Source: Parapedobacter luteus
GTDB lineage: Bacteria; Bacteroidota; Bacteroidia; Sphingobacteriales; Sphingobacteriaceae
Direction: 5' to 3'
Length of the DNA: 64,000 nt
Assembly (NCBI RefSeq): GCF_900168055.1
Contig: NZ_FUYS01000012.1
Coordinates: 1-64,000, forward strand
The translations under genes and the position numbers were made by a program. Shown here one piece after another: positions 1 to 4,561 of the stretch. The number at the start of each line of letters is the position of its first letter. Position 1 is the stretch's first letter. The notes under the pieces are model-generated. The model ran no database searches. It was not told the origin of the DNA and saw only the letters and a program-made list of their open reading frames with translations.

Positions 1-256
1 CCAGATCGGCCGAAGGTACCTCCAGCCGCACACCGTTGGGATAAATAACCGATAAGACACAATGGCCTGCCCTCTTGGGTGAACCCATCGGAATAAAGCC
101 ATTATCCCCGCCGGATTGATCCTCTTTCCAGCGACTGATCCAATAACCGAACTTACCCACGGTGATGCCATGCTGAAGGCAGAACTCCTGCCGGGTCAAA
201 CCACTCTCACGCCACTGACGGACAAGGGTAAACATGTAGTCTCTACGCTCTTTCAT
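1..256 (-). CDS. tnpA: IS66-family accessory protein TnpA (partial, runs off window start)
   Basis: Reading the minus strand from the ATG at 254-256 gives an open frame of 85 codons to the window edge. It begins MKERRDYMFTLVRQWRESGL, followed by TRQEFCLQHGI and FGYWISRWK. This is the short helix-turn-helix protein that comes first in IS66-type elements and is followed by TnpB and the TnpC transposase. Here those genes would lie to the left of base 1. IS66 accessory proteins are required for transposition, but their exact role is poorly defined. The gene starts about 28 bases inside the probable element end near base 284. The family call is fairly secure from the N-terminal pattern. Whether the element is intact cannot be judged. 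Confidence 0.8.
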   Translation of the reverse strand, partial: MKERRDYMFTLVRQWRESGLTRQEFCLQHGITVGKFGYWISRWKEDQSGGDNGFIPMGSPKRAGHCVLSVIYPNGVRLEVPSADL

Positions 257-284
257 ATCAATAATATTTAGCCCGTAAAACTAC
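1..284 (-). mobile_element. Right end of an IS66-family insertion sequence
   Basis: The tnpA start is followed outward by a short non-coding stretch. Read on the minus strand from 284, it begins GTAGTTTTACGGGC, and a GTA start is typical of IS66 terminal repeats. I place the element edge at about 284 by inference; the other inverted repeat and the expected 8-bp target duplication (possibly 285-292) lie partly outside the window. The element sits against the truncated lanB-like gene. Confidence 0.6.
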
Positions 285-298
285 AGCGGATCAATTAA

Positions 299-802
299 TC
301 AATAAAGATGTACTTGGTCGGGCGGATACTCATATAGCGTGCTGTTCGTAAAATAATTTAGTTGGCGTTGGCTTGACTTTTCTTGTGTGGCCAAGCTAAT
401 AAGATATGAAGTATATTCCGTGTCCAGTCGAAAGGTCGGGAAAAACTCCCCGGAGAGTTCAAGACATGTTTTTAATTCATCCGTCTTTCCCAAAGCCACT
501 CCGGCAAACTTTCCGTATGGTGTAGGCCGTCCGGCCATCCTATTGACATACTTATACAGGGATGTCAGCAGCTTACTTTTTGACGGAGTGTACTCACTTC
601 CAAGATGGTTTACCAATTCACGAAAAAGGTCTTCACTTGCAACGTAAATGGCATCAAGGATTTCAGGGTTCAACAACAAACTGTTTACATAGTTCCAAGC
701 ATCTTCTTTGCTGTCAAGCCTATTTAATCTATGAATGACAGAAGATGGTAAACGTGGAGTACGTAACAGGAAGAAATTGAAATCCCTGAATCTTGGTGTC
801 AT
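299..802 (-). pseudogene. Lantibiotic dehydratase (LanB) N-terminal fragment, truncated
   Basis: The 167-residue product has the opening signature of class I lantibiotic dehydratases: FFLLRTPRLP at residues 10-19 and RPTPYGKFAG at 92-101. Full LanB proteins run to roughly 800-1000 residues and dehydrate Ser/Thr of a precursor peptide by tRNA-dependent glutamylation, so more than four fifths is missing. The stop codon (299-301) lies within about 15 bases of the inferred IS66 edge. This suggests the element cut the gene, with the stop in the flank or arising by later decay. The ORF starts one base after the response regulator stop, so the two were probably co-transcribed. A genuine small stand-alone LanB_N protein is the alternative, but less likely. 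Confidence 0.72.
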
Positions 803-1235: not shown

Positions 1236-1412
1236 TTATTTACCACCCAGTATAGAGGTGGTCATCGATGTTGTAAGGGTTATTGTATAAAGACCTTCGA
1301 CTTCGCCCCAGAAATTCCCATAATTTGAGTTTTCAATGTGATCCGCACTGCAGACCACTTCTCTTTCGATTTGAAGAAATTGTTCGATTTGATTTTTGTT
1401 TAGCATTTCCAT
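1236..1412 (-). CDS. Candidate RiPP precursor peptide (58 aa)
   Basis: A short minus-strand frame starts at the ATG at 1410-1412, with a second ATG two codons later, and stops at 1236-1238. The N-terminal part is polar and helical-looking (MEMLNKNQIEQFLQIERE). The C-terminal 19 residues (GLYTITLTTSMTTSILGGK) contain eight Thr/Ser, exactly the residues LanB enzymes dehydrate. The only Cys is residue 21, upstream of that tail, so a classical lanthionine in the tail could not form from its own Cys. The usual Bacteroidota double-Gly leader site is not followed by a core. The case rests on position: it is the first ORF of the response regulator/lanB group. I do not recognise the family; a chance ORF remains possible. 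Confidence 0.45.
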   Translation of the reverse strand: MEMLNKNQIEQFLQIEREVVCSADHIENSNYGNFWGEVEGLYTITLTTSMTTSILGGK

Positions 1413-1615
1413 GATAATAACAATTAGATTTTCAATAAAATTTTATGCTAAACTGGATGAACCAATGGACTCCTAAAAATTTTTTCGACCAACTACAAAT
1501 TGAACATCACAAAAGATGATTTTAGCACCATATCATATTTTCACCTTTTTTTATCTAATTGATTATATTTTAGTTGTCTGTTTTTAAAGAAATCGTGTGT
1601 TAGGGTTGTTTCGCG

Positions 1616-4249: not shown

Positions 4250-4561
4250 TTATTGCGTGCTATAGCCGGTATCTTGTCCTTCGTAATCAAGTTTGTAGTC
4301 ACCGATATGCTTTTCACTTCGCGCAATTTTCTTCTTGTGGACAAAGTAGTTGACCACGCCGGCAACCAACACCACTGCGGAAATGGCAAAAAAGACGTAT
4401 TCATAGACGTGCCCGCCGGGCAATTCCAGCAACCGATCGACCGATATCCCAGCTATCGCGAAATACATGGCCGTACGCAAGAAAGAAAGGAATGTCGACT
4501 GATTGGCCAGTATCGTGCGTTGCAAGGCAAGTCGTTCGCGCAAAATCAGATCCTTGTTCAT
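4250..4561 (-). CDS. DUF202 (YidH-type) small membrane protein
   Basis: The protein begins MNKDLILRERLALQRTILAN and continues STFLSFLRTAMYF, the conserved start of DUF202 proteins, with membrane helices at about residues 35-53 and 63-83 and a charged tail. The open frame extends far upstream, but that part overlaps the thioredoxin gene on the other strand and looks unlike the family, so I take the ATG at 4559-4561. An ATG nine codons earlier (4586-4588) is the other reasonable start. DUF202 proteins are small inner-membrane proteins of unknown function. It is divergent from trxA with about 106 bases between them. Confidence 0.7.
   Translation of the reverse strand: MNKDLILRERLALQRTILANQSTFLSFLRTAMYFAIAGISVDRLLELPGGHVYEYVFFAISAVVLVAGVVNYFVHKKKIARSEKHIGDYKLDYEGQDTGYSTQ

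Follow-up and report, generated by a model that had tools for sequence, protein, structure and literature searches.

Introduction

Nisin, the class I lanthipeptide made with NisB/NisC, is under two-component control, as is suggested for the gene cassette described below. For the class I clusters of Chryseobacterium OV715 and Runella limosa, expression with LanA, LanB and LanC gave thioether rings (PMC9993889). With all three systems the cassette has in common a two-domain, full-length LanB and a Ser/Thr-bearing precursor with a leader. It differs in that no LanC was found by the cassette, no Cys is present in the tail, neither a transporter gene nor one for a leader protease was seen among its genes, and a stand-alone receiver gene lies between precursor and lanB. 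Class I precursors of Bacteroidota have LxLxKx5L leaders, often with Gly-Gly, and the class was counted there by LanC (PMC7268733). A similar L-x-I/L-E-K stretch, comparable to these leaders and to the model NF038153 (lant_leader_L1a), is present in the leader of the family described here; in contrast to those precursors, the family lacks Gly-Gly ahead of the tail as well as any Cys within it. Dehydration of LanB type in the absence of a LanC step would be shared with goadsporin, dehydrazoles and thiopeptides, in which azoles or a pyridine-type ring are formed by further enzymes, whereas the genes identified in the present cassette, whose neighbours were partly scanned, encode a receiver, LanB, a LytTR protein and a kinase only. 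The best-ranked matches in the open-licence PMC literature contained no description of this cassette, which is weak evidence of absence.

Here, we analyze a 58-codon ORF in Parapedobacter luteus, located in the window (the whole stretch of 64,000 nucleotides analyzed, positions 1 to 64,000 of NZ_FUYS01000012.1; contig C17 of genome G000). We consider it likely that the encoded peptide is the precursor from which a class-I-type RiPP, linear and dehydrated, is made without a cyclase, the pathway being probably off in the genome of this strain. The features are listed in Table 1.

Table 1. Coordinates of the features at the precursor locus in the window.
Feature	Position	Strand	Basis or remark
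One end of IS66-family element	1..329	-	inverted-repeat end GGGCGGATAC at 320-329
IS66 accessory protein TnpA, runs off contig	2..256	-	NF047593, 3.8e-22
lanB, 5' part up to the IS66 insertion (157 codons plus 2 nt)	330..802	-	remainder on G000:C3
8-bp target-site duplication TCATATAG	330..337	.	repeated at G000:C3:5277-5284
Stand-alone receiver-domain protein, 128 aa	804..1190	-	weak Pfam match and predicted fold
Precursor peptide gene, 58 aa	1236..1412	-	homologues and purifying selection in close pairs
Putative core: Cys-free tail rich in Thr/Ser (residues 40-58)	1239..1295	-	alignment, Cys count
Conserved leader part, residues 8-25, QIEQFLQIEREVVCSADH	1338..1391	-	alignment of 10 rows
Candidate operator CGACCAA-N8-TGAAC	1486..1505	+	74-93 bp upstream of precursor start

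The putative precursor ORF and its coding status

The ORF translates to MEMLNKNQIEQFLQIEREVVCSADHIENSNYGNFWGEVEGLYTITLTTSMTTSILGGK without an inner stop and is the first of three minus-strand genes. The initial annotation had placed it at the head of a group with a receiver-only protein and a dehydratase fragment. Its first position and the receiver protein stand, but the 'fragment' represents the beginning of a lanB gene into which IS66 has inserted, and the remainder is found on contig C3. Neither Pfam (E up to 1) nor NCBIfam (E up to 5) gave a match to the 58-aa ORF. Of its last 19 residues, 8 are Ser or Thr, whereas the 39 residues before them include two (hypergeometric p = 0.001). The sole Cys is residue 21; the description of a Thr/Ser-rich tail with a single Cys upstream of it is thus accurate.

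The same division is seen in 17 full-length homologues of 49-59 aa (own copy included). Mean Ser/Thr content is 37% in the last 19 residues and 11% before, no Cys occurs in the last 19 residues of any of the 17, and a leader Cys is present in five, only at positions 19 or 21. Tail length varies among the homologues. In the alignment of 10 rows, L13 and D24 of the leader are invariant and E16, S22 and A23 occur in at least 90%; in the tail, T45 is invariant and T48 is found in at least 90%.

For 4 of 12 homologue pairs, all of them close, dN/dS could be computed and was 0.09 (G141/G207), 0.14 (G243/G207), 0.15 (G141/L070) and 0.02 (L069/L078). The pair G141/G243 has a single change, which is non-synonymous, and in the remaining seven pairs silent sites are saturated, with pS > pN in each. 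Conservation and the low dN/dS of close pairs mark the small gene as real and coding. Its product is a member of a so far unnamed family.

Searches and distribution of homologues

In the order sample, 22 of 400 genomes matched the peptide at E up to 0.05, and 15 genomes were retained with 16 matches, one of which is the truncated copy described below. The other seven (G007, G178, G184, G193, G280, G322 and G325; E 0.013-0.044) were dropped as chance matches, mostly within longer frames. The family sample gave 20 genomes with a match at E up to 0.1, nine of which (G010, G033, G044, G080, G103, G138, G168, G183 and G184) were judged chance by frames, lengths or stops; a wide region of G168 (L033) contained no cassette. 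Among 395 genomes of the phylum, five weak matches outside the own genome lay in open frames of 175-752 aa, none of them convincing. A peptide-seeded search for related loci found nothing, and a second scan was seeded with the LanB alignment; it took the best 80 of 309 relatives, to which its counts refer. Peptide searches of the family and order samples alone found 15 of the 17 homologues, and the LanB-alignment scan contributed L068 and L080.

The 17 homologues comprise 13 loci (L065-L072, L076-L078, L080 and L133), the loci L025, L026 and L028, and the own copy. Carriers are Sphingobacterium, Parapedobacter, Olivibacter, bacterium A37T11, two MAGs and further relatives; in the family sample, three of the nine genomes of the genus carry the peptide. 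A real precursor copy in G291 is cut by the contig end after about 28 residues and was kept outside the 17. L068 (JAQSXG010000043.1), titled as a Neobacillus MAG, has a Sphingobacterium-like cassette. In the LanB tree its enzyme falls among those of Sphingobacterium, and the contig has probably been mis-binned.

Gene order of the cassette

The order peptide - receiver - lanB was found for 17/17 homologues, so that the conserved small gene lies close to a full-length lanB, except that the own lanB is split and that of L071 cut by the contig end. The expectation that homologues lie next to lanB was thus borne out, and no frameshifted homologue was found, the G291 copy being truncated by its contig end. 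With Cys-free tails upstream of receiver and lanB in all 17 cases, the initial proposal of a RiPP precursor of an unusual dehydrated class, having neither a double-Gly leader nor a Cys-rich core, gains support.

A convergent LytTR gene and a PF06580-type histidine kinase gene follow lanB in 15/15 relatives with enough contig, i.e., 12 of the 13 loci of the LanB scan (L071 ends inside lanB) plus L025, L026 and L028. The domains of the L031 cassette are PF04738 and PF14028 (LanB), a weak Response_reg (receiver), His_kinase, and Response_reg with LytTR. In the own genome, the kinase/LytTR pair is not located after lanB but on another contig, C21. The own kinase orthologue has 64% identity to the cassette kinase of Sphingobacterium mizutaii, the next paralogue 32%. 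On C3, lanB is followed over 2.6 kb by other genes, among them those for a secreted-looking small Cys protein (resembling NVEALA by eye), DUF1573 and HTTM (L023:218-2464). On C21, a gene resembling a signal peptidase by eye (L153:7877-8755) lies beside the LytTR gene. The genes of C3 and C21 may once have formed a single cargo block that was disrupted by IS66 and by IS3-like elements.

The constant neighbourhood of a receiver gene (17/17) and a two-component pair (15/15 relatives) would also fit a small regulatory protein, e.g., a partner of kinase or receiver, with LanB acting on something else, and the conserved part of the peptide matches no catalogued leader. Among the three peptides scanned with NF038153, no match was obtained for L066 and L067 (E up to 1) or the window ORF (E up to 5); a Pedobacter precursor is matched by this model (4.6e-11). 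However, the Ser/Thr enrichment is confined to a Cys-free tail of varying length, a pattern resembling that of a modified core. A lanB is close by for each of the 15 copies that the peptide searches alone had found, and no other candidate precursor upstream of lanB stood out by eye in the cassettes. We regard a regulatory protein as unlikely and assign the peptide with high confidence as the precursor for LanB.

The stand-alone receiver

The receiver protein matches Pfam PF00072 below the cut-off (E 0.0036), but it keeps the acidic residues 14-16, the phospho-acceptor position Asp60, Ser86 and Lys107, and its predicted model (24 rows, pLDDT 92.5, pTM 0.87) has CheY-like receivers as best matches (E 5.1e-5, TM about 0.6-0.7). 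Fold and residues together place it among receiver domains. E14, E16, D60, S86, K107 and P108 are invariant in nine cassette rows; L072 has Thr at position 86. Candidate roles are a phosphate sink, a partner of LanB, or a link between kinase and maturation, any of which the protein may have. In the receivers of the Cytophagales loci L094, L103 and L110, Asp and Lys are lost; there, the domain may therefore only bind.

LanC and the question of rings

In the fetched flanks (up to 5 kb), none of 13 cassettes had a LanC gene in a search seeded with four LanC loci, whereas the same search found LanC in 32 of the best 80 loci. At E up to 0.001, PF05147 (LanC) had no match in 9 of 15 cassette genomes (G000, i.e., the own genome, G068, G015, G243, G225, G411, G368, G019 and G291). 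In the other six, LanC is located on other contigs (G405, G045, G063), more than 2 Mb away (G207, G141), or is a weak partial match 17 kb from the cassette (G180); the genome of L080 is a seventh with LanC elsewhere. Co-occurrence with lanC, which the initial annotation had considered alongside lanB, was thus not borne out for these cassettes.

Five Pedobacter clusters (L073, L074, L075, L079 and L132) have the same receiver-lanB order and a convergent LytTR gene with kinase, and three of them (L073, L074, L079) also encode a Thr-tailed peptide. They differ from the cassette in having LanC as well as double-Gly precursors with Cys; genes for a HlyD-like and a C39-type transporter were recognized there by eye. 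LanC and Cys-bearing precursors thus go together in these sisters and are both missing here. The Pedobacter Thr-tailed peptide reached an hhalign probability of 3.8 against the precursor family, so that homology is unsupported. In the Pedobacter loci L162 (1501-1650(-)), L163 and L164, a 50-aa Thr-tailed peptide, ending in DTLTMTTTMTGFAI in two of the three, comes first in a cluster that also has Cys-bearing double-Gly precursors and LanC.

An ordinary class I lanthipeptide would require that the leader Cys (residue 21) is used or that a LanC encoded elsewhere forms (methyl)lanthionine rings. The Cys does precede the tail in the window peptide, and a LanC-like gene exists somewhere in 6 of the 15 cassette genomes. 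Yet only 5 of 17 homologues have a Cys at all, never in the tail, most of the genomes have no LanC match, no LanC lies in the cassette flanks, and the five LanC-bearing Pedobacter sisters have Cys-bearing double-Gly precursors; ring formation of this kind appears quite improbable. The system falls outside the class I lanthipeptides because there is neither a LanC with the cluster nor a Cys in the core (0/17). The system works like the first half of the class I lanthipeptide pathway. Without tail Cys and LanC, thioether rings are not expected and the product would be a linear dehydrated peptide. The absence of rings is here read from the absence of parts, since sister clusters with LanC use Cys-bearing precursors; we hold a linear, ring-free dehydrated product to be quite likely.

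Other loci with Ser/Thr-rich peptides were seen in Cytophagales (L094, L097, L103, L107, L110, L113, L121, L122, L125 and others), which encode a 41-48 aa peptide and LanB. The peptides have an LxLKKExIVxL-like leader and some have a tail Cys. Usually, LytTR and kinase genes are present, together with a receiver-like protein with eroded active site. In nine Cytophagales genomes, LanC was absent from L103, L106, L118, L121 and L125 and present once each in L092, L107, L110 and L113. These loci look like a second branch of the same idea. In L095 (Chitinophaga hostae), a peptide at 4315-4497 with a leader-like LALEKEIISKAD stretch and an SSVPTIPTT stretch is encoded after the kinase/LytTR pair and before receiver and lanB.

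LanB and its interruption by IS66

The ORF at 299-802 (-) contains the start of a lantibiotic dehydratase (PF04738, 1.3e-20). The window contig starts inside an IS66 element, and the remainder of lanB was found on C3 (5,873 bp), adjoining the end of an IS66 transposase gene (TnpC by eye). The IS66 ends GTATCCGCCC and GGGCGGATAC are flanked by the identical 8 bp TCATATAG on C17 and C3. A target duplication of 8 bp is usual for IS66; with TnpA/TnpC genes, inverted repeats and this duplication, the element belongs to the IS66 family. Together, the two lanB halves (473 + 2,662 nt) amount to 1,045 codons in one continuous frame free of internal stops, which matches the length of the S. mizutaii LanB (1,044 aa). 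Because of the shared duplication and the fitting halves, we infer that C17 and C3 are neighbours, although the IS is not assembled through. The same comparison gave no connection between C21 (kinase) and C3 (lanB) by way of a single IS66 copy; the target duplications differ (GAATTGAT versus ATTTGGCG). IS66 end sequences were found near contig ends of the own C3, C7, C11, C17 and C21, and IS66 copies have probably set the breaks of this assembly.

Since lanB is split, the pathway is probably off in the own genome, and the strain probably makes no active LanB. The interruption would also fit the remnant of a lanthipeptide cluster, i.e., a leader with a shortened or decayed core that has been drifting since IS66 broke lanB. 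Against this, tails alike in kind and of comparable length occur where lanB is uninterrupted, close pairs are under purifying selection, and the window ORF has no frameshift relative to its relatives in the alignment. A remnant is hardly credible, and the earlier suggestion that the ORF may be the leader of a shortened core is not supported.

For NisB, R14, Y80, R83, R87, W616 and H961 matter for dehydration, and T89 and R784 do so mildly (PMC4341554). Columns were placed by alignment with NisB, except for R14 and H961, which are absent from the printed NisB rows and were placed by motif. Included were also R786 and R826, which we take to be further functional residues of NisB and which were matched to LanB columns in the same way. 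The corresponding LanB positions R13, Y84, R87, R91, W633, H997, T93, R804, R806 and R852 are all invariant in the 7-row alignment, so that residue columns of both glutamylation and elimination are conserved in 7/7 LanBs. The own LanB halves carry the catalytic motifs, and PF14028 is present over its full length in the L031 LanB and in the own C3 part. Solved relatives by sequence are 9g04 (5.5e-108; named only thiopeptide-type protein), which we take to be MadB, and NisB 4wd9 (2.4e-62). PEARLs are not known to have the elimination domain. The full-length PF14028 and the invariance of the elimination-residue columns therefore argue against recruitment of this LanB for another tRNA-dependent reaction on the Thr-rich tail, such as PEARL-like amino-acid addition or stable glutamylation. 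LanB relatives in such roles are reported to exist (PMC11212132), but for the present enzyme we consider them very improbable. Based on sequence, we infer dehydration of the tail.

A LanB tree was calculated from 81 sequences, namely the own C3 part and those of the best 80 of 309 relatives. All 14 LanBs that come with this peptide (13 loci and the own genome) fall into a single clade (SH-aLRT 100). One Hymenobacter and five Pedobacter loci, each of which has LanC in its flank, group with this clade at support 90. The tree is rooted at the midpoint, and any direction of change read from it is conditional on this root.

Upstream element and possible two-component control

A block upstream of the precursor aligns in ten loci, and k-mers common to the precursor upstream regions comprised little beyond chance and A/T runs. 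The direct repeat CGACCAA-N8/9-TGACC (≤ 2 mismatches) occurs 89-94 bp before 11 of the 17 precursor starts; six regions (L067, L072, L076, L077, L080 and L133) have at least 3 mismatches. The same repeat is present upstream of 8 of 16 kinase genes, including the own one, with at least 3 mismatches in the other eight. Its distance from the kinase gene ranges from 117 to 272 bp, and it occurs there on either strand. Exact occurrences of the pattern in the own genome number seven versus four for a reversed control, and two of the seven are at the precursor and kinase promoters. The low values from shuffled sequences overstate the motif, because it was derived from the tested sequences, several of which are closely related to one another, and shuffling preserved base composition alone. 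The shared upstream element suggests that the LytTR protein regulates both the precursor operon and the kinase genes. As far as promoter sequences can tell, two-component control of the precursor operon is somewhat more probable than its absence. Autoinduction in the manner of nisin or Agr, with the peptide as the kinase's own signal, is a tentative suggestion from gene co-occurrence and the shared upstream element.

Proposed mechanism

The leader (LxIEKE...SAD) would dock on LanB, which would glutamylate Thr and Ser of the tail from glutamyl-tRNA and then eliminate glutamate to yield dehydrobutyrine (Dhb) and dehydroalanine (Dha). With less certainty, the kinase and the LytTR protein would activate their own genes as well as the precursor operon via the shared upstream element, the trigger of the kinase possibly being the peptide, as in nisin autoinduction. 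Similarly less sure, the receiver protein may link kinase phosphorylation to LanB or to the peptide. In the genome of the window, precursor and receiver remain and the product is probably not made.

Implications

Searches for class I systems that lean on LanC or on Cys-rich cores would miss these loci. Should the cassette yield a linear Dhb peptide governed by a two-component system, it would add a minimal route to peptides with dehydroamino acids and a possible modified-peptide signal in Gram-negative Bacteroidota. As a speculative extension, linear, Cys-free, Dhb-rich peptides of lone LanBs might form a new RiPP class of Bacteroidota and act as the signal of LytS/LytTR-type systems, the receiver tying kinase state to maturation. 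Cytophagales (Spirosoma, Fibrella, Dyadobacter) may share this design, with peptides and receivers that have diverged. The receiver gene between precursor and dehydratase raises the testable idea of phosphorylation-controlled RiPP maturation.
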